Origin: Vicinamibacteria bacterium
Lineage (GTDB): Bacteria; Acidobacteriota; Vicinamibacteria; Fen-336
Direction of reading: 5' to 3'
DNA length: 32,223 nucleotides
Assembly (NCBI GenBank): GCA_025923995.1
Contig: JAICEW010000031.1
Location: 1-32,223, forward strand
Every line of letters starts with the position of its first letter. Position 1 is the stretch's first letter. This document shows, piece by piece, positions 1,313 through 32,223 of the stretch. Both the position numbers and the translations under genes were made by a program. A model generated the notes under the pieces. That model had not been told where the DNA came from and made no database searches. It saw nothing but the letters and a program-made list of their open reading frames with translations.

Positions 1313-1324
1313 ACGGGAGACCAA

Positions 1325-3814: not shown

Positions 3815-3823
3815 GTCGCTCCC

Positions 3824-6298
3824 ATGCGCGGCATCGGGCAGGACGCGCGGCTGGCGGCGAGGAGGCTCCGGGAGAGCCCGGGCTTCACGGCCGCGGCCGT
3901 CCTGTCGCTGGGGCTCGGCATCGGCGCCAGCACGACGGTCTTCAGCCTGGTGGAAGCGCTCCTGCTGCGGCCGCTGCCGGTGGCCGATCCCGCGGGTGTC
4001 GTGGCGGTGTACACCAGCGACTACAGCGGGCCCGCCTACGGCGCCAGCTCCTACCCGGACTACCTCTCGTTCCGCGATTCCGGCGTCTTCGAAGGGCTGG
4101 TGGCGTTCACCATGATGCCTCTGGGCCTGGCCGGCGAGAGCGGGCCCGGCCGGGTCTGGAGCGAGGTCGTCTCGGGCGACTACTTCACGACGCTCGGCAT
4201 CCCCGTCGCGCACGGCCGCGGCCTGGTCCCGGACGACGACCGGGCGGGCGCGCCGGGCACGGTCGTGATCTCGCACGCACTGTGGCAGCGCGTGTTCGGC
4301 GGCGAGCCGTCGGTGATGGGACGGTCACTGGCGATCTCGGGCCGCCATTTCACGGTGGTGGGCGTGGCCGCGCCGGGCTTCGCGGGGCTCACGCGCGGCC
4401 TGGCGGTGGACGCGTGGGTGCCGATGTCGAGCCGGCCGGCGCTCACGGGCGAGGCGGGCGCGCTGACGAGCCGGGGCGACCGCGGGCTCGCGCTGCTCGG
4501 CCGCCTGCCGCCGGGGCTGCCGATGGCCGTGGCGCAGGCGCGGCTGGACGCGCTGGCCGCGGGCCTGCGCGCGCAGCACCCGGCGGAATGGAGGGACCTG
4601 CGCGACGCGACACGGCGGATCAGCCTCCTGCCCGAGTGGCAGGCGCGCATCCAGCCCATGTTGAGCGGCCCGGTGAGCGCGTTCCTCGCGCTGCTGGGCG
4701 CCATCGCACTGCTCGTCCTGCTGGCCGCCGCCGCGAACGTGGCCACCCTGTTCCTGGCCCGGCTGGTGCGCCGGCAACGGGAGGTGGCGGTGCGGCTGGC
4801 GCTGGGCGCGCGCCGCGGCCGGCTGGTGCGGCAGTTCCTCACCGAAACGCTGCTGGTCGCGCTGCTGGGTGGCGCGCTCGGCGTCGGGCTGGCCTTCGCG
4901 GCGGCCGAGGCCCTGGCCGCGATGCGCCTGCCGCTGCCGGTCACGGTCGCGCTCGACGCACGGCCGGACCTGCGCGTGCTGGGCTTCGCGGTCGGGCTCT
5001 CGCTGCTGGCCGGCGCGGCGCTCGGCCTCTTCCCGTCGCTGCAGGCGTCGCGTGCCGACGTGCTGCCGGGACTCAAGGACGAGGGCGCCCGGCGGGGCCG
5101 CGGGCGCCTGCGCGGCGCGTTCGTGGTGGCGCAGGTGGCGCTCTCGCTCGTCCTGCTCTCGGGCGCGCTGCTCTTCCTGCGCGGCCTGGGCCGAGCGGCG
5201 GCCATCGACCCCGGCTTCGACGCGGGCTCCGTGCTGGCCCTGCCCGCGGACCTCGTGCTGTCCGGCTACGACGAGCCGCGGACGGTCGACTTCCAGCAGC
5301 GCGTGGTCGAGCGCGTGGGCGCGGTGGACGGCGTCGAGGCGGTCGCGCTGGCCGTCAACCTGCACCTCGATCCGCTCGCCAGCGTGCGCCGCGGCCTCTC
5401 GGTCGAGGGCTACGAGCCCGGGAGCGGCGAGGACATGGAGGTGCACGCGGCCGCGGTGGGCGCGGGCTTCTTCGAGGCGCTGCGGCTGCCCATCGTGCGC
5501 GGCCGCGCGTTCGGCGCGGACGACCGGCCGGGCCGGCCGCTGGTCGCGATCGTCAACGAGACCTTCGCCCGCCGCTACCTCGCGGGACGCGACGCGATCG
5601 GCGCGCGCTTGAGCACGCGGGGCGCCGAAGGACCGTTCCTGGAGGTGGTGGGGGTCGCGCGCGACGCGAAGTACGCGAGCCTGGGCGAGGCGCCGCGGGC
5701 TTTCTTCTACGTGCCGCTCGTGCAGGACTTCGCGTTCGCGCAGTCCATCGGCTCGTTCGTGCCGCTGACCGTCCTGGTGCGCACCAGCGGCGACCCCGCG
5801 CGGCGAGCCGCCGACGTGCGCCAGGCCGTGCAGGACCTCGATCCCGCGCTCGCGCTGCAGCCGCCGCGGCCGCTCGCCGACCTGCTCGGCCTCTCGGTCC
5901 TGCCGACGCGCCTGGCCGGCCTGGCCCTGGGCGCGTTCGGGGTGGTCGGCCTGGGCCTGGCCGCGCTGGGCCTGTGGGGCGTGGTCGCCCAGTCGGTCGC
6001 GCAGCGCTCGCGCGAGTTCGGGGTGCGGCTGGCGCTGGGTGCCGCGCGGAGCCATCTCGTAGGCCTGGCGCTGGGGGAAGGCTCGCGGCTGGTCGCGATC
6101 GGCGGCGGCCTGGGCCTGGTCCTGGCGCTCCTGTTCGCGCGGGCGGCGCAAGGCTTCCTCTACGGCCTCTCGCCGTCCGACCCGCTGACGTTCGCGACCG
6201 CCGCCTTCGTCCTCCTGGCCGTCGCGCTCGGCGCGTCGTTCCTGCCGGCGCGCCGCGCCGGCCGCGTCGATCCGGTCGCATCGCTGAGGAGCGAGTAG
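3824..6298 (+). CDS. ADOP-family ABC permease (third of five)
   Basis: An 824-residue paralogue of its neighbours, starting 9 nt after the previous stop. TM1 is about 21-44 (GLGIGASTTVFSLVEALLLR). FtsX domain 1 is about 280-405 (EVAVRLALGARRGRLVRQ), the central TM about 429-455, and FtsX domain 2 about 692-820 (REFGVRLALGA). The second periplasmic domain keeps the IVNETFARRY and VVGVARDAKY segments shared by all five copies. Its periplasmic sequence differs clearly from the other copies while the membrane modules stay alike, suggesting old duplicates that recognise different partners or substrates (inference). No strong Shine-Dalgarno precedes ATG 3824, so translational coupling to the upstream gene is likely. 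Confidence 0.93.
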   Translation: MRGIGQDARLAARRLRESPGFTAAAVLSLGLGIGASTTVFSLVEALLLRPLPVADPAGVVAVYTSDYSGPAYGASSYPDYLSFRDSGVFEGLVAFTMMPLGLAGESGPGRVWSEVVSGDYFTTLGIPVAHGRGLVPDDDRAGAPGTVVISHALWQRVFGGEPSVMGRSLAISGRHFTVVGVAAPGFAGLTRGLAVDAWVPMSSRPALTGEAGALTSRGDRGLALLGRLPPGLPMAVAQARLDALAAGLRAQHPAEWRDLRDATRRISLLPEWQARIQPMLSGPVSAFLALLGAIALLVLLAAAANVATLFLARLVRRQREVAVRLALGARRGRLVRQFLTETLLVALLGGALGVGLAFAAAEALAAMRLPLPVTVALDARPDLRVLGFAVGLSLLAGAALGLFPSLQASRADVLPGLKDEGARRGRGRLRGAFVVAQVALSLVLLSGALLFLRGLGRAAAIDPGFDAGSVLALPADLVLSGYDEPRTVDFQQRVVERVGAVDGVEAVALAVNLHLDPLASVRRGLSVEGYEPGSGEDMEVHAAAVGAGFFEALRLPIVRGRAFGADDRPGRPLVAIVNETFARRYLAGRDAIGARLSTRGAEGPFLEVVGVARDAKYASLGEAPRAFFYVPLVQDFAFAQSIGSFVPLTVLVRTSGDPARRAADVRQAVQDLDPALALQPPRPLADLLGLSVLPTRLAGLALGAFGVVGLGLAALGLWGVVAQSVAQRSREFGVRLALGAARSHLVGLALGEGSRLVAIGGGLGLVLALLFARAAQGFLYGLSPSDPLTFATAAFVLLAVALGASFLPARRAGRVDPVASLRSE

Positions 6299-6308
6299 GA
6301 GGGACCTG

Positions 6309-8738
6309 ATGGACACGCTGCTGCAGGACGTCCGGCACGCGGTGAGGCGACTTGCGAAGACGCCCGGCTTCACGCTGGTGGCGGTCGTCGTCGTCGCCGT
6401 CGGCATCGGGGCCAACGCCGCGATCTTCAGCGTCGTGAACGCGACGCTGCTGGCGCCGGGCCCCTTCCCGGAGCCCGAGCGCCTTGTCCGCGTGTGGGAC
6501 TCGAGCCCCCAGCGGGGCGAGCCGATCGACCCCATCCCGCCGGCCAGCTTCCACGCCTATCGCGACGAGACGGGCGTCTTCGAGACGCTCGGCGCCTCGA
6601 CCGACGGGTTCTACAACCTGACCGGCTCGGGCGAGCCCGAGGCACTGCTCTCGTACCGCTACTCCGCGGACTTCTTCAAGGCGCTGGGAGTCCGGCCGCT
6701 GCTGGGCCGTACGTTCACGGCCGAGGAAGACCGGCCCGGCCACGACGGCGTGGTGGTGCTCAGCCAGGAGCTCTGGCAACGGCGCTTCGCGAGCGACCCC
6801 GGCATCCTGGGTCGCGCCATCACGCTGGACGGCCGCGCGTACACGGTCGTCGGCGTGATGCCCTCGAGCGTGAACTTCGGGCCGATCCAGCTCTGGACGC
6901 CGCTCGCCCTCGACCCCGCGCTGGCGAACAGCCTCGACCGGCGCTTCCTGCGCGTGGTCGGCCGGCTCAAGCCGGGCGTCACGCGCGAGCAGGCGAGCGC
7001 AGCGCTCGCCCGCGTTGCGGCGCGCATGGAGCGCGACCACCCCGACACGCACTCGGGCTGGACGGCGCTGGCCGAGCCGATCGACGAGCGGCTGGTGGGG
7101 GACATCCGCCCGGCCCTCAAGGTGCTGACGGCCGCCGTCGCGTTCGTGCTGCTGATCGCGTGCGCGAACGTCGCGAACCTGCTCCTGGTGCGCGCGGCCG
7201 GTCGCGAGCGCGAGGCGGCGGTGCGCGTGGCCCTGGGCGCGTCGCGCGGCCGGCTGATCCGTCAGTCGCTGGCGGAGAGCCTGCTGGTGGCCGTGACCGG
7301 CGGGGCGCTGGGCGTGTGGCTGGCCGGGGCGGGCGTCAACCTGCTGCTCGCGTTCTTCCCGAAGAACCTGGGCAACGTCGCGATCCCGAGGCTGCAGTCG
7401 ATCCCGATCGACGGGCACGTGCTCGGGTTCAGCCTGCTGCTCGTGCTCGCGAGCGGCGTCCTCTTCGGCCTCGTCCCCGCGCTGCGGGCCTCCGCCGCCG
7501 ATCCCGCCGAGTGCCTGCGCGACGGCGCGCGCACGACCTCGGGCGCGGCGCACGGACGCCTGCGCGGCCTGCTGGTCGCGAGCGAGATGGCGCTGGCCCT
7601 GGTGCTCACCTCGGCGGCGGCGCTGATGGTGCACAGCTTCGCGCGCCTCCAGGAGGGCCGGCTGGGGTTCGAGCCCGACCAGGTGCTGACGATGCGCGTG
7701 ATGCTGCCGCGCGCGCGCTACGACGCCGACGGCCAGCGGCGCTTCATGGACCAGGCCCTGCGGAACATCCGCGCGGTCCCGGGCGTGCAATCGGTGGGCA
7801 GCACCACGTTCCTGCCGCTCAGCGGCTGGCACGGCGACCGCGAGTTCGCGGTCGAGGGCCGCACGCCGCCCGTGCGCGGGCAGGAGCCGCACGCGGACTG
7901 GCGGATCATCGGGGGCGAGTACTTCGCCGCGCTGGGCACGCCGCTGGTGAAGGGCCGACTGTTCACGGACGCCGACGACGCGTCGCGCCCGCGCGTGGCC
8001 CTCGTCAACGAGACCTTCGCCCGCCGGCACTTCGCGAACGAGGACCCGTTGGGGCGCCGCCTCGACTTCCGGATCCAGTCGGAGGGCGACGCGCCCGAGT
8101 GGCGCGAGATCGTCGGCGTCGTCGGCGACATCCGGCACCACGGCCTCGTCCGCGACCCGGTCCCCGAGGTCTACATCCCGTACGCCCAGGAGCCCCTCTT
8201 CATCGTGGCCTTCGCCGTCCGCACCGCGGGCGAGCCGGCCGCGATGGCGGGGGCCGTCCGCCAGGCCATCTGGCAGGTCGACAAGGACCAGCCGGTCGCC
8301 TACGTGCTGCCCCTGCGCCAGATGGCGTCGGAGACGACCGCGCTGCACCGGACCAGCACGCTCACGCTGCTGGCGTTCACCGCCGTCGCGCTGGGCCTGG
8401 CCGCGCTGGGGCTCTACGGCGTGCTGAGCTACGCGGTGTCGCAGCGCTCGCACGAGATCGGGATCCGCGTGGCCATGGGCGCCTCGCGCCGCGACATCCT
8501 GGGCCTGGTGATGGGGCAGGGCCTGCGCTTGGCCGGAGCCGGGCTGGTCGTCGGCCTGCTGGCCTCGTTGGCACTCACGCGCCTGCTCTCGAGCCTGCTC
8601 TTCGGCGTCTCGCCCTACGACGTGCCCACCCTCGCGATCGTGGTCCTCGTGCTGACGGCCACCGCCCTGCTCGCGAGCTTCATCCCCGCCTTCCGCGCGA
8701 CCCGCGTCAGCCCGCTGGACGCGCTCCGCTACGAGTGA
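6309..8738 (+). CDS. ADOP-family ABC permease (fourth of five)
   Basis: An 809-residue double-FtsX permease. A good ribosome site (GGAGGG, 6299-6304) lies 4 nt before ATG 6309. TM1 is near residues 21-42 (VGIGANAAIFSVVNATLL), FtsX domain 1 about 265-395 (EAAVRVALGASRGRLIRQ), the central TM about 417-440, and FtsX domain 2 about 684-805 (EIGIRVAMGASRRDILG). The second periplasmic domain has the family LVNETFARRHF segment. It groups by eye with the fifth copy (shared IFSVVNA and similar length), so these two may be the youngest duplicates. Confidence 0.93.
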   Translation: MDTLLQDVRHAVRRLAKTPGFTLVAVVVVAVGIGANAAIFSVVNATLLAPGPFPEPERLVRVWDSSPQRGEPIDPIPPASFHAYRDETGVFETLGASTDGFYNLTGSGEPEALLSYRYSADFFKALGVRPLLGRTFTAEEDRPGHDGVVVLSQELWQRRFASDPGILGRAITLDGRAYTVVGVMPSSVNFGPIQLWTPLALDPALANSLDRRFLRVVGRLKPGVTREQASAALARVAARMERDHPDTHSGWTALAEPIDERLVGDIRPALKVLTAAVAFVLLIACANVANLLLVRAAGREREAAVRVALGASRGRLIRQSLAESLLVAVTGGALGVWLAGAGVNLLLAFFPKNLGNVAIPRLQSIPIDGHVLGFSLLLVLASGVLFGLVPALRASAADPAECLRDGARTTSGAAHGRLRGLLVASEMALALVLTSAAALMVHSFARLQEGRLGFEPDQVLTMRVMLPRARYDADGQRRFMDQALRNIRAVPGVQSVGSTTFLPLSGWHGDREFAVEGRTPPVRGQEPHADWRIIGGEYFAALGTPLVKGRLFTDADDASRPRVALVNETFARRHFANEDPLGRRLDFRIQSEGDAPEWREIVGVVGDIRHHGLVRDPVPEVYIPYAQEPLFIVAFAVRTAGEPAAMAGAVRQAIWQVDKDQPVAYVLPLRQMASETTALHRTSTLTLLAFTAVALGLAALGLYGVLSYAVSQRSHEIGIRVAMGASRRDILGLVMGQGLRLAGAGLVVGLLASLALTRLLSSLLFGVSPYDVPTLAIVVLVLTATALLASFIPAFRATRVSPLDALRYE

Positions 8739-11148: not shown

Positions 11149-11363
11149 TGCCCCTGGAACGCGATTTCAAGACGCTCGTCGCCGAGTACGAGAAGAAGCT
11201 GATCGAGGAGGCCCTGGCCGCCTGCGGCGGCAACCAGCGCCGGGCCGCGGCCGCCCTCAAGACCCTTCCCACCACGCTTCACGAGAAGATGAAGCGGCTG
11301 GGCCTCAAGCCGACCGGCGCCCCGCCGGTGGAGGACGAGGACTGCACCGAGAGAGAGGGATGA
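11148..11363 (+). CDS. Small Fis-type helix-turn-helix protein (71 aa)
   Basis: A 71-residue protein that is essentially one Fis/HTH_8 DNA-binding domain. A helical segment (LVAEYEKKLIEEALAAC, about 10-26) leads to GGNQRRAAAALKT and the HTH pair ending in LHEKMKRLGLKP (about 45-55), then an acidic tail (EDEDCTERE). The fold usually forms the C-terminus of NtrC-family regulators; the regulator at 12092 has the equivalent GGNVSRAAEALGLSRSALYRRLQRFGL. Here there is no receiver or AAA+ domain. The start overlaps the upstream stop (TGATG) and the end overlaps the ATPase start (ATGA), so it is embedded in the operon. It may regulate the operon or compete with the full-length regulator (inference). 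It could also arise from a lost regulator. Confidence 0.85.
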   Translation: MPLERDFKTLVAEYEKKLIEEALAACGGNQRRAAAALKTLPTTLHEKMKRLGLKPTGAPPVEDEDCTEREG

Positions 11364-12025
11364 TCCAGCTCCGCAACGTCGAAAAGACCTACCCGCAGGG
11401 CGGCGGCCTCACCTACGTGCTGCGCCGCATCGACCTCGACATCGCGGCCGGGGAGTTCACGTCGATCATGGGCCCGTCGGGCGCGGGCAAGTCGACGCTC
11501 CTGCACATCCTGGGCATGCAGGACAGCGCCTTCACCGGCGAGTACGTCTTCCGCGACCAGCCCACGAGCCGCCTCTCGCGCAAGGACCGGCTCGACCTGC
11601 AGAAGCGCAACATCGGCTTCGTCTTCCAGAGCTACCACCTGCTCGACGAGCTCACGGTGGCCGAGAACCTGGACCTGCCCCTGAGCTACCGCGACCTGCC
11701 CAAGGGGGAGCGGCAGGCCATGGTCGCCGACACGCTGGACCGCTTCCAGATCGTGGGCAAGAAGGACCTGTACCCGCGCCAGCTGTCGGGCGGGCAGCAG
11801 CAGCTGGTGGCGGTGGCGCGGGCCATCATCGCCAAGCCGGTCCTGCTGCTGGCGGACGAGCCCACCGGCAACCTGCACTCGGACCAGGGGCGCGAGATCA
11901 TGGAGCTGTTCCAGCGCCTCAACTCGGAGGGGACGACCATCATCCAGGTCACGCACTCGGAGACCAACGCCGGCTACGGGCGCCGGGTCATCACCCTCCG
12001 GGACGGCTGGATGGCCAAGGACTGA
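11360..12025 (+). CDS. ABC transporter ATP-binding protein, LolD/MacB type
   Basis: A 221-residue cytoplasmic ATPase expected to power FtsX-type permeases. It has Walker A GPSGAGKST (38-46), Q-loop Q90 (FVFQSYHLL), signature LSGGQQQ (142-148), Walker B LLLADEP (162-168, E167 catalytic) and H-loop H199. FQSYHLLDELTVAENL and DEPTGNLHSDQG are typical of the LolD/MacB/FtsE group. The residue after the signature is Leu (QQQLVAVARA) where this group usually has Arg. ATG 11360 overlaps the Fis-type stop by 4 nt. Being co-transcribed with five permeases and having no fused membrane domain, it is the likely shared motor for all of them (inference). Confidence 0.93.
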   Translation: MIQLRNVEKTYPQGGGLTYVLRRIDLDIAAGEFTSIMGPSGAGKSTLLHILGMQDSAFTGEYVFRDQPTSRLSRKDRLDLQKRNIGFVFQSYHLLDELTVAENLDLPLSYRDLPKGERQAMVADTLDRFQIVGKKDLYPRQLSGGQQQLVAVARAIIAKPVLLLADEPTGNLHSDQGREIMELFQRLNSEGTTIIQVTHSETNAGYGRRVITLRDGWMAKD

Positions 12026-12091: not shown

Positions 12092-13462
<1,371 letters not shown>

Positions 13463-13490: not shown

Positions 13491-14810
13491 ATGGCCCGCC
13501 GCCTGAGCCATGAGCAGCGCGTGCTGCTGCTGTCGCTGGGGGCGGCGGCCCCGGCCGCCGTGGTGGCGCTGACGCTGCTGTGGACGCAGCCGCACGGCAC
13601 CCGCGCCCGCTGGACGCTGACCGCCCTGGTCGTGCTGGCGGCGCTCGCGTTCGCGGCCTCCGCGCGTGCGGCCGTGGTGCGCCCCCTGCAGACCCTCTCG
13701 AACCTGCTGGCCGCGCTGCGCGAGGAGGACTACTCCTTCCGCGCGCGGGTGCCCCGCGGCGCGGACGCGATGGGCGACGCCCTGCGCGAGGTCAACGCGC
13801 TGGTCGACGTGCTGCGCACGCAGCGCCTGGGCGCGCTGGAGGCCACCGCGCTGCTGCGCAAGGTGATGGAGGAGATCGACGTCGCGGTCTTCACGTTCGA
13901 CGAGCTGAAGCGGCTGGTCCTGCTCAACCGGGCGGGCGAGCGGCTGCTGGGCCGGACGGCCGAATCGATGATCGGCCGCACGGCCGACGAGCTGGGGCTG
14001 GGGAGCGCGCTGGACCCGGCCGTGGTGCCGGTCCTGGAGCTGAAGCTGCCCGGCGGGGCGGGGCGCTTCGAGGCCCACCGGGGCACGTTCCGCCAGGGCG
14101 GCGTGCCGCACGAGCTGCTGGTGCTGACCGACGTGAGCCGCGCGCTGCGCGAGGAGGAGCGGCTGGCCTGGCAGCGCATCATCCGCGTGCTCGGGCACGA
14201 GCTCAACAACTCGCTGGCGCCCATCAAGTCGCTGGCCGGCAGCCTGGACGACCTGGTGGCGCGCCAGCCGCGCCCGGACGACTGGGAAGCGGACCTGCGC
14301 CGCGGCCTGGCCGTGATGGGCGGCCGCGCCGAGTCGCTGAGCCGCTTCCTCGACGCGTACGCGCGCCTGGCCAAGCTGCCGCCGCCGCAGCGCCGGCCCG
14401 TCGACCTGGGCGAGCTGGTGCGCCGCGTGGCCGGACTGGAGACGCGCCTGCGGGTCGAGGTGGCCGATGCGCCGGTCCTCAAGGTGCGCGCCGACCCCGA
14501 CCAGCTCGAGCAGTTGCTCATCAACCTGGTCCGCAACGCCGTCGACGCCGCCCTGGAAACGGGGGGAGGCGTGCGGCTCGCCTGGCGCGCGAAGGGGCCG
14601 TGGGCGGAGGTGGTGGTCGAGGACGAGGGACCCGGCCTGCCCGCCAGCGCCAACCTGTTCGTGCCCTTCTTCACCACCAAGCCGGAGGGATCCGGCATCG
14701 GCCTCGTGTTGTCGCGCCAGATCGCGGAGGCGCACGACGGCACGCTGAGCCTGGAGCCGCGCGGCGGTGGCCCCGGCAGCCGCGCGCGGGTGCAGCTCCC
14801 GCGGGGCTGA
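13491..14810 (+). CDS. Membrane sensor histidine kinase, NtrB/NtrY-like
   Basis: A 439-residue inner-membrane kinase. Two TM helices (about 11-31 and 41-62) enclose only a very short outside loop, so it probably senses membrane or cytoplasmic signals. A HAMP-like linker (about 62-112, starting VRPLQTLSNLL) and a PAS-like domain (about 118-215) follow. The H-box LGHELNNSLAPI has phospho-acceptor H236. The catalytic domain has the N-box LINLVRNAVDA (343-353), G1 box DEGPGL (378-383) and PFFTTKPEGSGIGL (392-405). The compact ELNNSLAPI box is typical of NtrY/NtrB kinases that pair with NtrC-type regulators. GGAG ends 4 nt before ATG 13491, and the regulator gene lies just upstream. Confidence 0.94.
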   Translation: MARRLSHEQRVLLLSLGAAAPAAVVALTLLWTQPHGTRARWTLTALVVLAALAFAASARAAVVRPLQTLSNLLAALREEDYSFRARVPRGADAMGDALREVNALVDVLRTQRLGALEATALLRKVMEEIDVAVFTFDELKRLVLLNRAGERLLGRTAESMIGRTADELGLGSALDPAVVPVLELKLPGGAGRFEAHRGTFRQGGVPHELLVLTDVSRALREEERLAWQRIIRVLGHELNNSLAPIKSLAGSLDDLVARQPRPDDWEADLRRGLAVMGGRAESLSRFLDAYARLAKLPPPQRRPVDLGELVRRVAGLETRLRVEVADAPVLKVRADPDQLEQLLINLVRNAVDAALETGGGVRLAWRAKGPWAEVVVEDEGPGLPASANLFVPFFTTKPEGSGIGLVLSRQIAEAHDGTLSLEPRGGGPGSRARVQLPRG

Positions 14811-16735: not shown

Positions 16736-16739
16736 GAGG
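16736..16739 (+). promoter_or_regulatory. Ribosome binding site (GAGG) that decides the alkylsulfatase start
   Basis: GAGG ends 5 nt before ATG 16745, a normal spacing. An in-frame GTG at 16739 overlaps this site and so is unlikely to be the start, although it would add only two residues. Confidence 0.5.
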
Positions 16740-16744
16740 TGCCC

Positions 16745-18811
16745 ATGGACCGAGTCACTCCGCTCCTGGTCGTCGTGACGCTGTCGGCGGTGACCGTCGG
16801 CGGCTCTGCGCAAGCGCAGGAACGACACTTCCATCCCAAGGGCAAGCCGCCCTCGAAGTTCACCATCGAGCTGCAGCAGGGCGTGCGCGCGTCGCTGCCC
16901 TTCGACGACAAACGCGATTTCGAAGAGGCGAAGAAGGGGTTCATCGCAGCTCCGCCGTACAAGCAGATCAAGGCCGAGGCGGGTCACGTGGCGTGGGACA
17001 TGGCGAGCTACGACTTCCTGCTCCAGGGCGGGACGTTCGATTCCATTCACCCCTCGCTCCAACGCCAGGCGATCCTCAACATGGCCTACGGTCTGTACGA
17101 GGTCCTGCCGGGCAGGATCTACCAGGTGCGCGGCTACGACCTCGCCAACTTCACCCTGGTCAAGGGCGACACGGGGTGGATCGTGTTCGATCCGTTGACG
17201 GCCAAGGAGACGGCCAGGGCGGCACTGGACTTCGCCAACGAGAAGCTCGGCCGGCGCCCGGTGGTCGCCGTCGTCTACTCCCACTCCCATGGCGACCACT
17301 TCGGCGGTGTGCGCGGCGTGGTGGAGGAGGCCGACGCGACAAGCGGCAAGGTCAAGATCATCGCGCCGGTCGGCTTCATGGACCACGCGGTGGCCGAGAA
17401 CGTCATGGCCGGCACGGCGATGACGCGGCGGATGTTCTACCAGTACGGCGTGCTGCTCCCGCGCGGCCCGTTCGGCCATGTCGACCAGTCGATCGGCAAG
17501 AACACCGCGGCCGGCAACACGGGACTGGTCCAGCCCAACGTCATCATCGAGAAGCCCTTCGAGGAGCTCACGGTCGACGGTGTGCGGATGGTGTTCCAGA
17601 ACACGCCCGGCACCGAAGCCCCCGCTGAAATGAACACCTGGTTTCCGCAGCTGAAAGCGTTCTGGGCCGCCGAGAACATCACCGGCACGATCCACAACAT
17701 CTACACGCTGCGCGGCGCACTGGTGCGTGACGCCTTGGAGTGGTCCAAGCAGATCAACGAGGCGATCTACCGCTTCGGCCTGGAAGCCGACGTCATGTTC
17801 GCTTCGCACAGCTGGCCGCGCTGGGGGAACGCTCGGATCCTCGAGGTGATGCGGGCGCAGCGCGACGCCTATGCGCACCTGAACAACCACGTGCTGCACC
17901 TGGCCAACAGCGGGGTGACGATCAACCAGGTCCACAACGTCTACAGGCAGCCAAGGAGCCTCCAGAGGCAATGGGCGGCGCGCAGCTACCACGGCTCGGA
18001 GCAGCACAACAGCCGGGCGGTCCTCAACCGCTACCTCGGCTACTGGGACGCGAACCCGGCCACCCTGATCCCCCTTTCGCCGGGCGATTCCGCGCCGCTC
18101 TACGTGGAGATGATGGGCGGGGCCGACAAGATCATCGCCAAGGGGCGTGAGCTCAACGACCGGGGCCAGTACCTGCTTGCGCAGGAGATCCTCGGCAAGC
18201 TCGTCTACGCGCAGCCGAAGAACGAGGCGGCCAAGGACCTGCTCGCCGACGTGTGGGAACAGATCGGCTACCAGCAGGAGAGTCCGAGCGTGCGCAACAG
18301 CTTCCTCGCCGGTGCCTACGAGCTGCGTTCGGGCATTCCCACCGGCGCCTCACCCAAAGGGACGGGGCCGGACATGATTCGGGCCATGACGACGGGCCTG
18401 TGGCTCGACTTCCTGGGCGTGAGGCTGCAGAGCGACAAGGTCGAAGGGCAGAGTTTCGTCGTCAACTTCGTCACGCCGGACAACGGCGAGAAGTTCGTGA
18501 TCGAGCTGAGCAACGGAACGCTCACCAGCATCCGGGGCCACCAGGCGAAGAACCCCACGCTGACGATGACGGTGAACCGCGCTGATCTCGAGCAGGTCAT
18601 GATGGGCAAGACCGCACTCGACGACCTGATCGGGGGCGGCAAGGTGAAGCTCGAGGGCGATCGCAAGGCCTACGACCTGCTCAAGGCGAGCCTCGTCCAC
18701 TTCGACATGGGCTTCGAGATCCTGCCGGGGACGAAGACGCAGCCGGAGCCGCCCAAGCTGAATCCCTTCGAGCAGGCACCCCCGGCGCCGTCCGGGGGCG
18801 GAATGCTCTAG
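16745..18811 (+). CDS. Secreted alkyl sulfatase, metallo-beta-lactamase fold (SdsA1/BDS1 family)
   Basis: A 688-residue type III alkylsulfatase expected to cleave primary alkyl sulfates such as dodecyl sulfate in the periplasm. A signal peptide (about 1-24, ending SAQAQ) is followed by a zinc metallo-beta-lactamase domain with HSHGDH (180-185: H180, H182, D184, H185), TEAPAEM (E291, E295), AAEN (E310) and ASHSWP (H355). A helical dimerisation domain (about 400-540, MMGGADKIIAKGRELNDRGQYLLAQEIL) and a C-terminal SCP2-like domain (about 555-670) complete the usual family layout and length. Sampled lines are about 57-70% G+C, below the permease operon, consistent with transfer. It is monocistronic and ends at a strong bidirectional hairpin. 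Confidence 0.93.
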   Translation: MDRVTPLLVVVTLSAVTVGGSAQAQERHFHPKGKPPSKFTIELQQGVRASLPFDDKRDFEEAKKGFIAAPPYKQIKAEAGHVAWDMASYDFLLQGGTFDSIHPSLQRQAILNMAYGLYEVLPGRIYQVRGYDLANFTLVKGDTGWIVFDPLTAKETARAALDFANEKLGRRPVVAVVYSHSHGDHFGGVRGVVEEADATSGKVKIIAPVGFMDHAVAENVMAGTAMTRRMFYQYGVLLPRGPFGHVDQSIGKNTAAGNTGLVQPNVIIEKPFEELTVDGVRMVFQNTPGTEAPAEMNTWFPQLKAFWAAENITGTIHNIYTLRGALVRDALEWSKQINEAIYRFGLEADVMFASHSWPRWGNARILEVMRAQRDAYAHLNNHVLHLANSGVTINQVHNVYRQPRSLQRQWAARSYHGSEQHNSRAVLNRYLGYWDANPATLIPLSPGDSAPLYVEMMGGADKIIAKGRELNDRGQYLLAQEILGKLVYAQPKNEAAKDLLADVWEQIGYQQESPSVRNSFLAGAYELRSGIPTGASPKGTGPDMIRAMTTGLWLDFLGVRLQSDKVEGQSFVVNFVTPDNGEKFVIELSNGTLTSIRGHQAKNPTLTMTVNRADLEQVMMGKTALDDLIGGGKVKLEGDRKAYDLLKASLVHFDMGFEILPGTKTQPEPPKLNPFEQAPPAPSGGGML

Positions 18812-26034: not shown

Positions 26035-26576
26035 TCGCGATGGACTGCAGGACGGCGGGCGAGGCGCTGAGCCCGTGGATCGACGGCGAGCTGCCGGAGG
26101 CCGAAGCCGCAGCGGTGGCCGCACATCTGGCCACGTGCGACGCCTGCAGGCGTCGTCGGGCGCTGCTGGCCGGCATCGGTGCCGCCATCAGGGAGCTGCC
26201 CGCGGAACGCGTCTCGGCCACGTTCGAGGATGCGTGGCTCCGCCGGCTGGCGGCCGGGCGCAGGCCGGTTCCTCGTCGGCGCATGGTCCTGGTCGCCGCG
26301 GGGCTGGCAGCCGTGCTGGGCGCGGGCTGGTGGCTGCGGCCCGAGCGGCCGGCGACGGGGCTGGGCGTCATCGCTCGAGCGCCGAAGACGCCGGAGCGGC
26401 GCGCGGCCGGCGTGCCGGCGCTCGACTGCGGGCTCGGCCGGACGGGCGGCCGCTGCCGCGTCGAGACGCCGTGCGCCAGCCCCGCCTCCTGCGGGCGGGC
26501 CGCGAGCCATGACGCGAGCCGGATGGCTCGCGACGCCGGATCGCTGTCGGCAGGGATGCGGACCGGGATGCCCTGA
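26031..26576 (+). CDS. Zinc-finger anti-sigma factor, membrane-anchored
   Basis: A 181-residue anti-sigma factor. The N-terminal zf-HC2 domain has C6 (MDCRTAGEAL), H32, C36 and C39 (HLATCDAC), with SPWIDGELPEAEAAAVAAHL between them as in known anti-sigma domains. One TM helix spans about 85-102 (MVLVAAGLAAVLGAGWWL). The outside tail (103-181) has no known domain but carries four Cys in 22 residues (C133, C142, C148, C154). It should hold the upstream sigma factor until an envelope signal arrives; the Cys tail is a candidate redox or metal sensor (inference). The overlap with the sigma gene makes its expression stoichiometric. Confidence 0.85.
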   Translation: MIAMDCRTAGEALSPWIDGELPEAEAAAVAAHLATCDACRRRRALLAGIGAAIRELPAERVSATFEDAWLRRLAAGRRPVPRRRMVLVAAGLAAVLGAGWWLRPERPATGLGVIARAPKTPERRAAGVPALDCGLGRTGGRCRVETPCASPASCGRAASHDASRMARDAGSLSAGMRTGMP

Positions 26577-26601
26577 TCCGGGCGCGGTGGCGGGCCCAGC
26601 G

Positions 26602-26607
26602 TACAAT
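26602..26607 (+). promoter_or_regulatory. -10-like hexamer TACAAT before the Ppx/GppA gene
   Basis: TACAAT, one base from TATAAT, lies nine bases before ATG 26617, the same spacing as at the response regulator. No Shine-Dalgarno is present in the 40-nt gap from the anti-sigma gene, suggesting a leaderless transcript. Confidence 0.45.
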
Positions 26608-26616
26608 CGCCTGCCC

Positions 26617-28110
26617 ATGAGCGCGCCCGTCGCCGTCATCGACATCGGTTCCAACTCCGCGCGCGTCGTCGTCTACGAGCCGGAGGCGTCGGGGCATCTG
26701 CGTATCCGTGCCGGCACGCGCGCCGCGCTGCGCCTGGTGCGCGACGTGGACACGCAGCGCCGTCTCAGCGAGGACGCGATGGCGCGCGCCATGGACGCCC
26801 TGCGCGACTTCCGGGCCATCGCGCTGGGGGCGGGCGCTTCGCGCGTGGTGGCCGTCGCGACCGCGGCCATGCGCGACGCGGACAATGGCACGGTGTTCCT
26901 GGAGCGCGTGCGGCGCGAGCTCGGCATCGAGGTCGAGCTGATCGACGGCGACCGCGAGGCGCGCTACGGGTTCGTGGGCGCGGTGCGCGGCCTGCCGGTG
27001 GACGACGGGCTCGTGTTCGACATGGGCGGTGGCAGCATGCAGGTGTCCCGCTTCCGCGGGCGGGCGCTCACGAAGGACTGGAGCCTGCCGCTGGGCTCGC
27101 TGCGCCTGTCGCAGACGTTCCTCGAGAGCGACCCGCCGAAGTCGGGCGAGGTGCGCAAGCTCAAGGCGCACGTGCGCGAGCTGCTGCAGGACGCGCACAT
27201 CCCGAAGCTGCGGGCGGGGGAGACGCTCGTCGGCACCGGCGGCACCGTCCGCAACCTGGCCAAGATCGACCGCCGCGGGCGCGGCTACCCGATCACGCGC
27301 CTGCACGGGTACTCGGTCACCCGCCGGCACCTGCACGACGCGGTGGCGCGCGTCGCAGAGACGCCGCTGCGGAAGCGCGACTCGATCCCCGGCCTCTCGG
27401 ACGAGCGGGCGGACTCGATCGTGGGCGGCGCGCTCGGGATCGAGACGCTGGTGGAGGCGGTCGAGGCCTCGGCGATCCTCGTCTCCGGCCAGGGCGTGCG
27501 CGAGGGCATCGCGTACTCGCTGATGGCGCCCACGGTGCCGGACTCTTCATCGGTGCGCCGCGAGGCGCTGGGCGCGCTGACCGCGCGCTTCTCCGCCTGG
27601 GACGCGGAAGCCGCCGTGCGCCGCCGGTCGGTGGCCGCGCAGCTGGCGGCCGCGCTGCTCGGCGGCGACTCCGAGCTCGCCGAGTCGGCCGCGGACGCCG
27701 CGTTCGTCCTCGACATCGGCCGCAGCGTGGACTTCTTCGAGCGCTACGAGCACGCGGCCGACATCGTCCTGGCCACGGACCTGGACGGCTTCTCGCACCG
27801 CGAGATGGCCCTGCTGTCGGCCATCCTGCGCACCGGGCGCGACGAGAACGCGGACCTGAAGCCGCTGAGCCCGATCCTGAAGGGCGACGAGCGCGCGGCG
27901 GTCGAGCGTGCCGCGATGGTGCTGGCGCTGGCCGACGACATCGAGGAGCGTTGCGCGCGCGGCACCGCGATCACCGTGGGGTGCGAGGTGGCGCGGCACG
28001 AGGTGCGCCTGGACGTGCCGGCCCTGGCCGGCTGGCGTGCGCGCCAGATGGGGCCCCGGTTCGAGAGGGCGTTCGGGAAGCGGCTGGTGGTGCTGGCGGG
28101 CGGGACGTAA
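26617..28110 (+). CDS. Ppx/GppA-type exopolyphosphatase / pppGpp phosphatase
   Basis: A 497-residue cytoplasmic phosphatase of the ASKHA fold, near the usual family length. N-terminal motifs are AVIDIGSNSARV (6-17), the catalytic glutamate E114 (GDREARYGF), DMGGGSMQVS (135-144) and GTGGTVRNLAK (206-216). The C-terminal third (about 315-490) is a helical HD-type domain as in PPX/GppA (DIGRSVDFFERYEHAADIV, then FSHREMALLSAILR). It hydrolyses polyphosphate or pppGpp, tying into stringent and phosphate responses; sequence does not tell which. ATG 26617 is chosen because the IDIGSNS motif must be near the N-terminus and the frame upstream only shadows the anti-sigma gene. Confidence 0.93.
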   Translation: MSAPVAVIDIGSNSARVVVYEPEASGHLRIRAGTRAALRLVRDVDTQRRLSEDAMARAMDALRDFRAIALGAGASRVVAVATAAMRDADNGTVFLERVRRELGIEVELIDGDREARYGFVGAVRGLPVDDGLVFDMGGGSMQVSRFRGRALTKDWSLPLGSLRLSQTFLESDPPKSGEVRKLKAHVRELLQDAHIPKLRAGETLVGTGGTVRNLAKIDRRGRGYPITRLHGYSVTRRHLHDAVARVAETPLRKRDSIPGLSDERADSIVGGALGIETLVEAVEASAILVSGQGVREGIAYSLMAPTVPDSSSVRREALGALTARFSAWDAEAAVRRRSVAAQLAAALLGGDSELAESAADAAFVLDIGRSVDFFERYEHAADIVLATDLDGFSHREMALLSAILRTGRDENADLKPLSPILKGDERAAVERAAMVLALADDIEERCARGTAITVGCEVARHEVRLDVPALAGWRARQMGPRFERAFGKRLVVLAGGT

Positions 28111-28159: not shown

Positions 28160-30457
28160 GTGAAGCGCGTCGGTGTCGTTCTCGCGCTGGCGGCCGCTGC
28201 CCTCGCGGCCTGGGTGGCCCTCGCCCGTCCGCGATGGGCGTCGCGCGTCCTTCCGTCGCGCGGCCCGCGGAACGTGCTCATCGTCACGCTCGACACGCTG
28301 CGGGCCGACCACCTGGGCGCGTACGGCTACGCGGCCGCGCAGACGCCGCGGCTCGACGCGCTGGCCGGCTCGGGCCTGCGCTTCACGCAGGCCACGACCG
28401 TCGTCCCGCTGACCCTGCCCGCGCACTCGTCGCTCTTCACCGGCACGTTCCCGGGCTGGCACGGCGTGCGCGACAACGGCGGCTTCTACCTGGGCGACGA
28501 CCAGGTGACGCTGGCCGAGGTGCTCCGCGAGCGCGGGTTCCGCACGGGCGCGTTCGTGAGTGCGTTCGTGCTCGATCGGCGCTGGGGGATCGGGCAGGGC
28601 TTCGAGCGCTTCCACGACGAGTTCGACCTGGACGCGTTCGGCGACGCGCCCGGGCTCGACACCATCCAGCGGTCGGGCGCCCAGACGGTCGACCAGGCGG
28701 TCGCGTGGCTCGCGGCCGATCGCGAGCGTCCGTTCTTCGCCTGGGTGCACCTCTACGATCCGCACGCGCCCTACGATGCGCCCGAGCCGTACCGCTCGCG
28801 GTTCCCGGGCACGATGGTGGGCGCGTACGACGCCGAGATCGCGGCGACCGATGCGCAGGTCGGCCGGCTGCTGGACGCGCTCGAGGCGCAGGACCGCCGC
28901 ACCGACACCCTGGTCGTGGTCCTGGCGGACCACGGCGAGATGCTGGACGAACACGAGGAGCAGGCGCACGGCTTCTTCGTCTACGACGCGGCGGTGCGCA
29001 TCCCGCTGATCGTCGCGGGCCCGGGCGTGCCGTCGCGCGTGGTGGCCGATCAGGTCCGCATCGTGGACGTGATGCCGACCGTGCTCGACCTGCTGGGCGT
29101 GGCGCAGCCGAAGGCGGTCCAGGGCGTGAGCCTCCGGCCGCTGGCCCGCGGCGAGCCGCTCCCGCTCGTCGCGCGGTCGGAGAGCTGGTACCCGCGCTAC
29201 CACTACGGATGGAGCGAGCTGCAGTCGATCCAGGACGGGCGGTTCAAGTACATCCGCGCGCCGCGGCCGGAGCTGTACGACCTGGCGGCCGATCCGCGCG
29301 AGACCAACGACCTCTCGCGGCAGGATCCGCAGCGGCTGGCCGCGATGGACAAGGCGCTCCGCGCCGAGATCGACAGGACCGCCAGCGCGACCGCCGCGAA
29401 GGGTCCGCAGGTCGTGGACGCCGAGACGGAGGAGCGGCTGGCCGCCCTCGGCTACGTCGGGGGCAGCGTGAGCGCGCGCCACCTGGAGGACCGGCCGCGC
29501 GGCGATCCCAAGGACAAGATCGGCCTCTACAACCAGATGAAGCTGGCGGGCACCGACTCGAGCGAAGGCCGCTACGACGACGCGATCGCCCGCGTGAGGC
29601 AGGTCCTGACGGCGGATCCGGAAGTGGTCGAGGCCTACATGCTGCTCGGCAACTTCCTCAAGAAGTCGAAGCGCCCCGACGACGCCCTCGCGGCCTACCG
29701 CCAGGCGCTCACGCTCGATGCGGAGCACCAGGGCGCGCTGTTCAGCCTGGCCCTCGCCTACAAGGACCAGGACCGTCTGGAGGAGGCCCGCGTCGGGTTC
29801 GAGCGGGCCCGCGAGCTCGACCCGCGCAACGGCAAGGTGCTCTGGCAGCTCGCGGACATCGCGTTGCGCCAGCACCAGCCGGAGCGCGCCGAGACGATCG
29901 TCCAGGACGCGCTCACGCGACGCGTGGACGCGCACCGGTTCCTGCTGAAGCGGGCCGAGGGGCTGATCGAGCGCCAGCGCTACGACGAGGCGGAGAAGGC
30001 GCTGCGGGAGGCGCTCGAGAAGAAGGCGGACCTGCCGACCGCGCACTACCACCTCGGGCTCGTCTACGAGGCGCGCAACCAGCCCGACCGCGCGATCGCG
30101 GAGTACGAGGCCGAGCTGGCGCGCAGCGCCAAGGCCTACCGCGCGGCGTTCAACCTGGCCAAGCTGCTGCAGTCGGCCGGACGCCTGGACGAAGCCGTCC
30201 GCCGGTACCGCCAGGCGGTCGAGACGCAGGCGGGCTTCGGGACCGGCCAGCTGTACCTGGCCAAGGCCCTGCTCGACACCGGAGACCTGGCGGGCGCGGA
30301 GCAGTGGGCGCGCAAGGGCCTCGAGTCGAGCCCGGACGCGCGCATCGCGCCGCTGGGGCACTTCGTCCTGGCCGACGTGTACAACCGGCAGGGGCGCCGC
30401 GCGGACGCGGAGCGCGAGGTGGCCCGCGCGCGCCGCCTGCAGAAGAGCGCTCTTTGA
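28160..30457 (+). CDS. Sulfatase-fold (alkaline phosphatase superfamily) protein with C-terminal TPR repeats
   Basis: A 765-residue membrane-anchored protein. An N-terminal hydrophobic helix (about 4-21) precedes the sulfatase domain (about 36-440). Metal ligands are D45 (VTLDTLRADH) and D257/H258 (LADHGEMLDEHEEQAHGFF, with H270). The nucleophile position reads T85-L-P-A-H89, so it lacks the Cys/Ser-X-Pro-X-Arg needed for formylglycine; Thr may act instead, as in LtaS- or EptA-type transferases of this superfamily. About seven to eight TPR units follow (465-765; AEKALREAL, DRAIAEYEAEL). The GTG start is preferred because the signal helix begins there; ATG 28152 is out of frame. The role may be in envelope glycan or lipid modification (inference). 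Confidence 0.88.
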   Translation: MKRVGVVLALAAAALAAWVALARPRWASRVLPSRGPRNVLIVTLDTLRADHLGAYGYAAAQTPRLDALAGSGLRFTQATTVVPLTLPAHSSLFTGTFPGWHGVRDNGGFYLGDDQVTLAEVLRERGFRTGAFVSAFVLDRRWGIGQGFERFHDEFDLDAFGDAPGLDTIQRSGAQTVDQAVAWLAADRERPFFAWVHLYDPHAPYDAPEPYRSRFPGTMVGAYDAEIAATDAQVGRLLDALEAQDRRTDTLVVVLADHGEMLDEHEEQAHGFFVYDAAVRIPLIVAGPGVPSRVVADQVRIVDVMPTVLDLLGVAQPKAVQGVSLRPLARGEPLPLVARSESWYPRYHYGWSELQSIQDGRFKYIRAPRPELYDLAADPRETNDLSRQDPQRLAAMDKALRAEIDRTASATAAKGPQVVDAETEERLAALGYVGGSVSARHLEDRPRGDPKDKIGLYNQMKLAGTDSSEGRYDDAIARVRQVLTADPEVVEAYMLLGNFLKKSKRPDDALAAYRQALTLDAEHQGALFSLALAYKDQDRLEEARVGFERARELDPRNGKVLWQLADIALRQHQPERAETIVQDALTRRVDAHRFLLKRAEGLIERQRYDEAEKALREALEKKADLPTAHYHLGLVYEARNQPDRAIAEYEAELARSAKAYRAAFNLAKLLQSAGRLDEAVRRYRQAVETQAGFGTGQLYLAKALLDTGDLAGAEQWARKGLESSPDARIAPLGHFVLADVYNRQGRRADAEREVARARRLQKSAL

Positions 30458-32223
30458 GCGCCGCGAGGAAGCGCGCCCTCGGCCTGGCCGCGGTGCTGGC
30501 CGCGGGGTGCAGCGGCTCGACCCCGACCGCGCCGGAGCCGGCGCGACATCTCGCCATCGTCACCATCGACACGCTGCGCGCCGACCGCGTCGGCGCCTAC
30601 GGCTACGCGGGCGCGTCCACGCCCCACCTCGACGCGCTCGCGCGCGACGGGGCCATGGCCCTTCAGGCGTCCGCGCACGTGCCGCTCACGCGGCCGTCGC
30701 ACGTCACGCTCCTGACCGGCCGGCTGCCCAGCGAGGCCGGCATCCGCGACAACTTCGCGCCCGCGATCGTCCCGCAGGTGCCGCTGCTGGCCGAGGTGCT
30801 GAAGAAGGCGGGCTTCGCGACGGGCGCGTTCGTGTCGTCGGTCGTGCTCGACTCCGGCGCCGGGTTCGACCGCGGGTTCGACGTCTACGCGGACGAGTTC
30901 GAGGCCGCGGGCGACCAGGCCCGCTTCCTGAACACGGTCCAGAAGCGCGGCGACGTCACGACGGGCGAGGCGCTCGCGTGGCTCGAGAAGGCGAGCGCAA
31001 CGGGCCAGCGCGTCTTCCTGTGGCTGCACCTCTACGACCCGCACGATCCGTACGAGCCGCCGGAGCCCTACGCGTCGCGCTTCGCCGACCGGCCCTACGA
31101 CGGCGAGGTCGCGTTCGCGGACGCGCAGCTCGGCCGGCTCGACGAAGCGCTCGCGCGCCTCGGCCTGCGCGAGCGGACGGCGCTCCTCGTGACCTCGGAC
31201 CACGGCGAGGGGCTGGGGGAGCACGGCGAGACGCTGCACGGCTTCTTCGTGTACGAGACGACGCTGGCCGTGCCTTTCTTCGTGCGCGGACCCGGCGTGC
31301 GCCCGGGCACGCGCCTGCCGACGACGGCGCGGCTGGTGGACGTGTTCCCGACCGCGCTGGACCTGCTCGGCGTCGGCGCACCCGAGGGCGCGCGGCCGGG
31401 CCGCAGCCTCGCGCCCGCACTCGCGGGCGGTCCCGCGGGCGAGGAGCCGGTCGTGTACGCGGAGTCGCTCGTGCCCCTCCTGCACTTCGGGTGGAGCGAC
31501 CTGCGCGTCCTGCGCGAGGGCCGCTTCAAGTACATCCAGGCGCCGCGGCCCGAGCTGTACGACCTCAAGACCGACCCCGGCGAGCTCACGAACCTGGCCG
31601 GCAATGAGCCCGCGCGGGCCGAGGCGCTGCGCAAGGCGCTGGGCGCGATGCTGGACGCGGAGCGGGCCCAGGCGAAGTCGGGCACGACCGCGCCGGCCAT
31701 CGCGCCCGAGCTGCTCGAGAAGCTGGGCGCGCTCGGATACGTCGGCGGCGCGGCGCCGGCCGAGACCTCGACGCCCGGGGCCGATCCCAAGGACAGGATC
31801 GAGGACTTCCGCGTCGCCAACGACCTCATCCGCCAGGGGCTGGCGAGCCTGCACGCGGGCGATCACGCGCGGGCGGCGGCGCGCTTCCGTGCGGTGCTGG
31901 CGCGCGGGATCGCGAGCTTCGAGGTGCACTTCTACCTGGCCCGCGCGCTCTCCGGCCTCGGGCGGTACGCGGAGGCCGTGCGCCACTTCGAGGAGGCCAC
32001 GAAGCGCTCGCCCTCGCATGCGCCCGCCTGGCTGGGCCTGGCGCGCAGCCAGCTCGCGGCCGGCAGGAAGCCGGAGGCCCGCCGGGCGTTCGAGGCGGCG
32101 CTGCCGCTGGCTCCGAAGAGCGGCGAGCTGCGCGCGGAGCTGGGCGAGCTCCTGCGCGCGCAGGGCGACGTCGCGGCCGCGATCCGCCTGCAGACCGAGG
32201 CGACGAAGCTCTCGCCCGACGTC
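30454..32223 (+). CDS. Sulfatase-fold lipoprotein with TPR repeats, 3' end outside window
   Basis: At least 590 residues, running off the right edge without a stop. TTG 30454 overlaps the previous stop (TTGA) and begins a lipoprotein signal (SAARKRALGLAAVLAAGC, lipid Cys C19). The sulfatase domain (about 32-430) has D39 (VTIDTLRADR), T79-R-P-S-H83 at the nucleophile site, and D249/H250 (TSDHGEGLGEHGE) with H262 (LHGFF). LGYVGG (about 428-433) marks the domain end as in the upstream paralogue. TPR-like helices follow from about residue 460 (YLARALSGLGRYAEAVRHFEE). It is a paralogue of its neighbour with a different anchor. No ATG lies near the N-terminus. Confidence 0.87.
   Translation, partial: MSAARKRALGLAAVLAAGCSGSTPTAPEPARHLAIVTIDTLRADRVGAYGYAGASTPHLDALARDGAMALQASAHVPLTRPSHVTLLTGRLPSEAGIRDNFAPAIVPQVPLLAEVLKKAGFATGAFVSSVVLDSGAGFDRGFDVYADEFEAAGDQARFLNTVQKRGDVTTGEALAWLEKASATGQRVFLWLHLYDPHDPYEPPEPYASRFADRPYDGEVAFADAQLGRLDEALARLGLRERTALLVTSDHGEGLGEHGETLHGFFVYETTLAVPFFVRGPGVRPGTRLPTTARLVDVFPTALDLLGVGAPEGARPGRSLAPALAGGPAGEEPVVYAESLVPLLHFGWSDLRVLREGRFKYIQAPRPELYDLKTDPGELTNLAGNEPARAEALRKALGAMLDAERAQAKSGTTAPAIAPELLEKLGALGYVGGAAPAETSTPGADPKDRIEDFRVANDLIRQGLASLHAGDHARAAARFRAVLARGIASFEVHFYLARALSGLGRYAEAVRHFEEATKRSPSHAPAWLGLARSQLAAGRKPEARRAFEAALPLAPKSGELRAELGELLRAQGDVAAAIRLQTEATKLSPDV

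Follow-up and report, generated by a model that had tools for sequence, protein, structure and literature searches.

Tandem TPR-fused proteins of the sulfatase fold with threonine at the nucleophile position: putative phosphoester hydrolases of Acidobacteriota encoded near Oar-type TonB receptors

The window analysed here, a stretch of 32,223 nucleotides from a Vicinamibacteria bacterium (assembly GCA_025923995.1, contig JAICEW010000031.1; GC 73%), is the entire contig C31 of a genome (G000) of 6.82 Mb in 592 contigs, and it ends in two forward-strand genes that we call A and B. Gene A (28160-30457) begins with GTG and encodes 765 amino acids, a PF00884 domain followed by tetratricopeptide repeats (TPRs); gene B (30454-32223) begins with TTG, overlaps the stop of A by four bases (TTGA) and is truncated at the contig end, position 32223, with the first 590 of its 669 residues in the window. 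The preliminary description of this DNA took the two products for sulfatase-TPR paralogues, and this is borne out: PF00884 is matched with E values of 1.3e-49 (A) and 6.6e-38 (B), the match in A being full-length (model positions 1-301), TPR models lie C-terminal to both, and the two proteins share 43% identity over 544 amino acids. The remainder of B is found on contig C272 (positions 2-268), the first 28 bases of which are exactly the last 28 bases of the window; C272 continues the frame to a stop at position 268 and supplies the last 79 residues, and this segment is 65% identical over 80 amino acids to a protein of a second genome, G033. C272 also carries, about 570 bases beyond B and on the opposite strand from position 834, the own-genome receptor closest to the one that neighbours the A-B pair of G033 (729 bits; runner-up 228). 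The join therefore gives the locus order as a Ppx/GppA gene, A, B and then a receptor facing these genes.

Consistent with the preliminary description, neither protein has the C/S-x-P/A-x-R formylglycine motif of sulfatases; profile alignments place T85 of A at the opening position of the C/S-x-P-x-R motif in solved sulfatases, and the motifs reported around it (D45/D39, D-H-G-E, and T-L-P-A-H or T-R-P-S-H) are all found in A and B. The putative nucleophile of A opens the sequence T85-L-P-A-H89 (28412-28426), which places a His at Thr+4, and N106 (Thr+21; 28475-28477) occupies the position of NPP3 N227 and SPAP N110. The predicted metal ligands are D45 (28292-28294), the Asp and His of D257-H258-G-E260 (28928-28939), in which the Glu is like MCR-1 E468, and, for a second metal, D200 and H202 within H197-L-Y-D200-P-H202 (28748-28765); H270 (28967-28969), twelve residues after H258, is at the position of MCR-1 H478. 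In B, where D39 is the counterpart of D45, the corresponding elements are T79-R-P-S-H83 (30688-30702), N100 at Thr+21 (30751-30753, aligned to N106), H192-L-Y-D195-P-H197 (31027-31044) and D249-H250-G-E252 (31198-31209), followed by H262 at H250+12 (31237-31239); all lie on the forward strand.

These residues are retained across a large family, which we sampled as the best 80 of at least 579 confirmed relatives, found by two peptide patterns and then aligned. The survey of Thr in related TPR fusions that the preliminary description had proposed gave a uniform result: all 79 relatives covering the site have the Thr, and all 79 have the His at Thr+4, a conservation beyond chance, with both residues outside the two search patterns. 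The Asn at Thr+21 (70/80) is independent of the patterns too. H270, likewise outside them, is present in 80/80 relatives, and the positions conserved across the family are D45, D/E200, H202, D257, H258 and H270. The family is widespread. Matches to P0001 (E up to 1e-40, with the first 50 candidates per genome scored) occur in at least 18 of the 21 genomes searched, our own included, and one genome has at least 18 of them; the closest relatives of gene A are in assemblies titled Acidobacteria, and a larger genome scan found relatives, among the matches listed, in assemblies titled Acidobacteria, Aminicenantes, Planctomycetota, Deltaproteobacteria, Gemmatimonadetes and Pseudomonadota. One could envision scaffolds of the sulfatase fold that have lost catalysis and act solely through binding and their TPRs, for which YejM/LapC offers a comparison, and a weak match to the YejM model and the many paralogues would suit such a role; yet the predicted nucleophile and ligands hardly vary among relatives from several phyla, and we regard it as very unlikely.

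The AlphaFold2 model of A (mean pLDDT, the predicted local distance difference test, 93.3; predicted template modelling score 0.88) places the catalytic domain in the sulfatase fold, with 6hr5 matched at Z 41.9 (root-mean-square deviation [rmsd] 2.2, 344 residues aligned) and the phosphonate monoester hydrolase (PMH) 2vqr at Z 34.7 (rmsd 2.6, 366 aligned). NPP, LtaS and EptA are not among the best 50 fold matches listed for this domain, which excludes nothing. The C-terminal part (residues 440-765; 29477-30454, forward strand) forms a TPR superhelix according to both profile matches and the predicted fold; folded alone it gives a pLDDT of 88.1 and resembles the superhelix of OGT (1w3b; Z 27.0, rmsd 6.2, 305 aligned), and SusD is not among the best 50 fold matches listed for it, which again excludes nothing. 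A TPR model is matched by 66/67 aligned family members. Both proteins are probably exported, A by way of a hydrophobic N-terminal helix (residues 2-21; 28163-28222, forward strand) that could be a signal or a membrane anchor, and B by way of a lipobox, A-A-G-C19 (30499-30510, forward strand), followed by Ser so that the signal ends L-A-A-G-C-S. Of the 76 relatives for which upstream sequence exists, 70 have a lipobox or hydrophobic stretch by a simple rule; the other 6 fail it.

Within their own genome A and B are not exceptional. The 29 PF00884 matches comprise 14 of a Thr type, 6 of a formylglycine type, 6 others (L006, L007, L009, L013, L015 and L021) and 3 unclassed (L027-L029, dropped as distant or partial), so that the Thr type is the commonest; L004, L010 and L016 are counted as formylglycine type because their sequence has Cys, the T in the alignment column reflecting a one-residue shift. 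All 14 Thr-type proteins have T-x-P-[SA]-H plus Asn at Thr+21. GKxH is found in 6/6 formylglycine-type and 0/14 Thr-type proteins; conversely, position 200 is Asp or Glu in 79/80 relatives and 14/14 own Thr-type proteins and in 0/6 of the formylglycine type (there A, R or Q), and PF01663, the phosphodiesterase/NPP profile, matches 14/14 Thr-type proteins, 0/6 of the formylglycine type and 67/67 aligned family members. In a tree of 44 domains the 6 formylglycine-type proteins split off at 100/100 support. With formylglycine sulfatases and PMHs (6hr5, 2vqr, 4uph) A and B share the fold, the first Asp ligand and the His of PHxP; they differ in having Thr for Cys/Ser, His for Arg at +4, no GKxH and an additional TPR arm, and, relative to the formylglycine type of their own genome, Asp-His for Asp-Asn. 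A formylglycine sulfatase is thus ruled out by the nucleophile, the Arg and GKxH. As for a sulfatase mechanism in which Thr itself acts and no formylglycine is needed, the fold and the top PDB matches are indeed those of sulfatases and the superfamily has been described as promiscuous; but the Arg of CxPxR, GKxH and the Asp-Asn pair of the own formylglycine type are all replaced, the genome has separate formylglycine-type proteins as well as matches to the FGE domain, and the SulfAtlas authors state that conversion of Thr to formylglycine has never been demonstrated (PMC5066984), all of which makes this most improbable. Two further observations concern the same set of proteins: tandem Thr-type gene pairs occur at 4 of 10 own-genome loci (C203, C282, C70 and C31), and the family member L021 (G000:C7:36839-37642), with C-L-P-A-H, no Asn at +21 and Lys/Phe in the H202/H270 columns, is possibly a dead or changed enzyme.

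The likenesses of the active site are divided among several phosphoryl-transfer enzymes. NPP3 has its nucleophile at T206 and Asn at N227 (PMC6052110), and the family resembles NPPs in the Thr spacing, the Asn at Thr+21, the Asp-His pair and an N-terminal PF01663 match; unlike NPPs, it has PF00884 as its best whole-domain match and D-x-H rather than D-x-x-x-H, and the seven dizinc ligands of NPPs, a distant third His among them, are not all present, although H270 may substitute. SPAP, an alkaline phosphatase of the Thr kind, has Thr89, His93 and Asn110, His93 also occurring in NPP and positioning the Thr (PMC3145672), and this spacing is that of T85, H89 and N106. Because SPAP is a monoesterase, with Lys171 and Arg173 in its site (PMC3145672), A and B might be phosphomonoesterases of its kind that release phosphate from envelope monoesters. 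R171 of A (Thr+86), Arg in 70/80 relatives, is near SPAP Arg173 (Thr+84) in sequence and may be its equivalent, but no counterpart of Lys171 is seen, alignment columns 165-170 of the 80 relatives containing no conserved Lys near Thr+82, and the spacing of the C-terminal ligands differs. We consider this reading, under which PafA, another SPAP-like phosphomonoesterase, would be a further comparison, rather unlikely, though of some weight. The SPAP authors themselves note that the Asn does not decide between mono- and diesters, and they place it in PMH as well (PMC3145672).

The preliminary description compared the proteins with LtaS and EptA, and this holds for one half of the site: D257-H258-G-E260, H270 and H202 resemble D465-H466-G-E468, H478 and H395 of MCR-1 (PMC5216409). 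The region around the Thr is closer to NPP3 and SPAP. Transferases of the EptA/LtaS kind, moving a phospho-headgroup to an envelope lipid or glycan, are accordingly an unlikely alternative, to which weak NCBIfam matches of A to a phosphoethanolamine-transferase model (residues 218-271) may be added in favor. The scores of these matches are far below cut-offs, however, and in place of the first ligand Glu246 and the five predicted helices of MCR-1 (PMC5216409) the first ligand here is Asp and A has one N-terminal helix, where LtaS too has a multi-helix membrane domain; Asn at Thr+21, the acidic residue at position 200 and the TPR arm are further differences. As the sole model, LtaS/EptA is rejected on the fit of the Thr region to NPP/SPAP.

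We therefore favor, with moderate confidence, the reading of A and B as phosphoester hydrolases that belong to the alkaline phosphatase superfamily, are exported, probably have two metals and work with a TonB receptor. The points counted for it include the T-x-P-x-H/Asn spacing, the MCR-1-like Glu of DHGE and His twelve residues after the DHGE His, the acidic residue at position 200, the absence of GKxH, the PF01663 matches, linkage to receptors and the two PF01663 proteins beside A-B in L031. The suggestion that these are more likely phosphoryl-group enzymes than sulfatases is upheld to the extent that the site, by its residues, resembles a phosphoryl-transfer site.

The receptor linkage is as follows. 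An Oar-type TonB receptor gene is found at 37 of 80 loci, and at 19 of the 35 with full flanks; among the clustered neighbour receptors, 36/37 match PF25183 and 30 match a carboxypeptidase regulatory-like domain. In a background test on 29 of the 35 full-flank loci (omitting L032, L037, L039, L049 and L051, which are receptor-positive, and L064, which is negative), 14 were receptor-positive versus 2.7 expected from receptor density in the same genomes (P 1.4e-8, assuming independent loci), with the background receptor number set to whichever was higher, candidates or listed matches, no more than about 22 candidates scored in each genome, neighbour receptors called by BLAST clustering and background receptors by Pfam, and neighbour genes called by a rough GC-frame rule. 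In the own genome, a receptor accompanies 7 of 10 Thr-type loci (C31 via C272, C45, C70, C198, C203, C240 and C308), counting as positive the C203 receptor, which is below the Pfam cut-off (26 bits); the corresponding P of 2.2e-6 assumes independent loci, takes 46 PF25183-bearing contigs as 46 receptors with a 4-kb reach, and rests on 65 of 72 receptor candidates scored. By comparison with the Thr-type loci, a receptor was found on 0/12 contigs carrying genes of the formylglycine type (6) or of other types (6), for a Fisher P of 7e-4. G033 has an A-B pair (62% and 58% identical) followed by a receptor on the same strand, and a second A (68%) with a receptor about 120 bases upstream; the locus L031 holds two PF01663 proteins, a 274-amino-acid protein without a family, A, B, a TPR frame and a receptor; and in the closest assembly, RBC046 (L030/L130), A has no adjoining B and the receptor is about 5.3 kb away. 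The count of loci that have at least two family genes, 36/80, overstates paralogues, as the cluster includes TPR-only proteins.

Several findings weigh against the phosphoester-hydrolase reading. The top PDB matches, in sequence and in fold, are formylglycine sulfatases and PMHs. At Thr+21, 70 of the 80 relatives have Asn, 9 have Phe and 1 has Gln, and the Asn is not NPP-specific because it is also present in PMH and in one of the six formylglycine-type proteins of the own genome (L003). The search patterns themselves account for part of the conservation of HxYDPH and DHGE, and no His column past H270 exceeds 46% among the relatives, so that there is no distant His of the NPP type. Finally, no receptor is present at 16 of the 35 full-flank loci, nor at the own Thr-type loci C4, C88 and C282. 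The nine relatives with Phe at Thr+21 (L045, L047, L049, L054, L060, L062, L065, L068 and L096), mostly in Terriglobia, Acidobacteriaceae or gp1 records, offer a natural test of the role of the Asn.

If A and B are indeed phosphoester hydrolases, the Thr would attack phosphorus to form a phospho-Thr intermediate, one metal, bound by D45, T85, D257 and H258, would activate the Thr, and a second, bound by D200, H202 and H270, would, together with N106, bind the phosphate and activate a water molecule. The substrate would more likely be a diester than a monoester. The TPR arm would presumably dock a partner, for which the neighbouring receptor is the best candidate, and the enzymes may process a phosphate-containing compound that the receptor imports. 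A bolder and more doubtful proposal is that of receptor-lid enzymes, in which a phosphodiesterase on a TPR arm clamps an Oar-type TonB receptor and combines the cutting and import of phosphate-linked polymers in one complex. It is worth testing because in RagAB of Bacteroidota a TonB receptor is known with a TPR lid lipoprotein, the 4-TPR RagB (PMC11817032). As in SusCD and RagAB, a TPR protein (in B, a lipoprotein) is encoded beside a TonB-dependent receptor; unlike in those systems, the protein with the TPRs is itself a putative enzyme, its superhelix is OGT-like, and the receptor is of the Oar type, with an association that is one of gene adjacency. If true, this would be an Acidobacteriota counterpart of SusCD with lid and enzyme in one protein, and some genomes would have a dozen versions or more, serving different substrates.

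The remaining genes of the window include a Ppx/GppA exopolyphosphatase family gene directly upstream of A (26179-28110, forward strand), which is not among the scanned neighbours in L031 and from which we draw no inference, and an alkyl sulfatase of the metallo-beta-lactamase type (16739-18811, forward strand; PF14863/PF14864/PF00753), a sulfatase of another kind. MacB/FtsX-type permease genes form a run (2-8738, forward strand; three scanned, at 2-1312, 1325-3814 and 6309-8738), after which come an ABC ATPase (11360-12025), a sigma-54 response regulator (12092-13462) and a histidine kinase ATPase domain (13491-14810). Beside family members elsewhere, GWxTD-domain proteins (L107:1357-3399) and FG-GAP/UnbV-ASPIC proteins (L034:1449-3248) each recur at 8/80 loci, with one member of each cluster scanned.

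That PF00884 contains Thr proteins is already published: the SulfAtlas paper reports Thr in place of the catalytic Cys/Ser in 30 of 59 Pfam seed sequences and names the profile as a source of false annotations (PMC5066984). The TPR-fused Thr family and its receptor linkage were not described in the titles and abstracts found, which covered no preprints and few subscription papers; what appears to be new here is the TPR-fused family, its mixed active site and its receptor neighbours. We conclude that the preliminary observation was correct and its interpretation partly right, and that the family is real, widespread and misnamed. Because such proteins are picked up by PF00884, the 'Sulfatase' profile, genomes of Acidobacteriota, Aminicenantes and Planctomycetota are probably credited with too many sulfatases, while a function on phosphate esters has probably been overlooked in them. 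The mixture of NPP-like and EptA-like residues makes the family a case of the sulfatase fold changing its nucleophile and, perhaps, its metal count, and the linkage to receptors renders the question of substrate testable.

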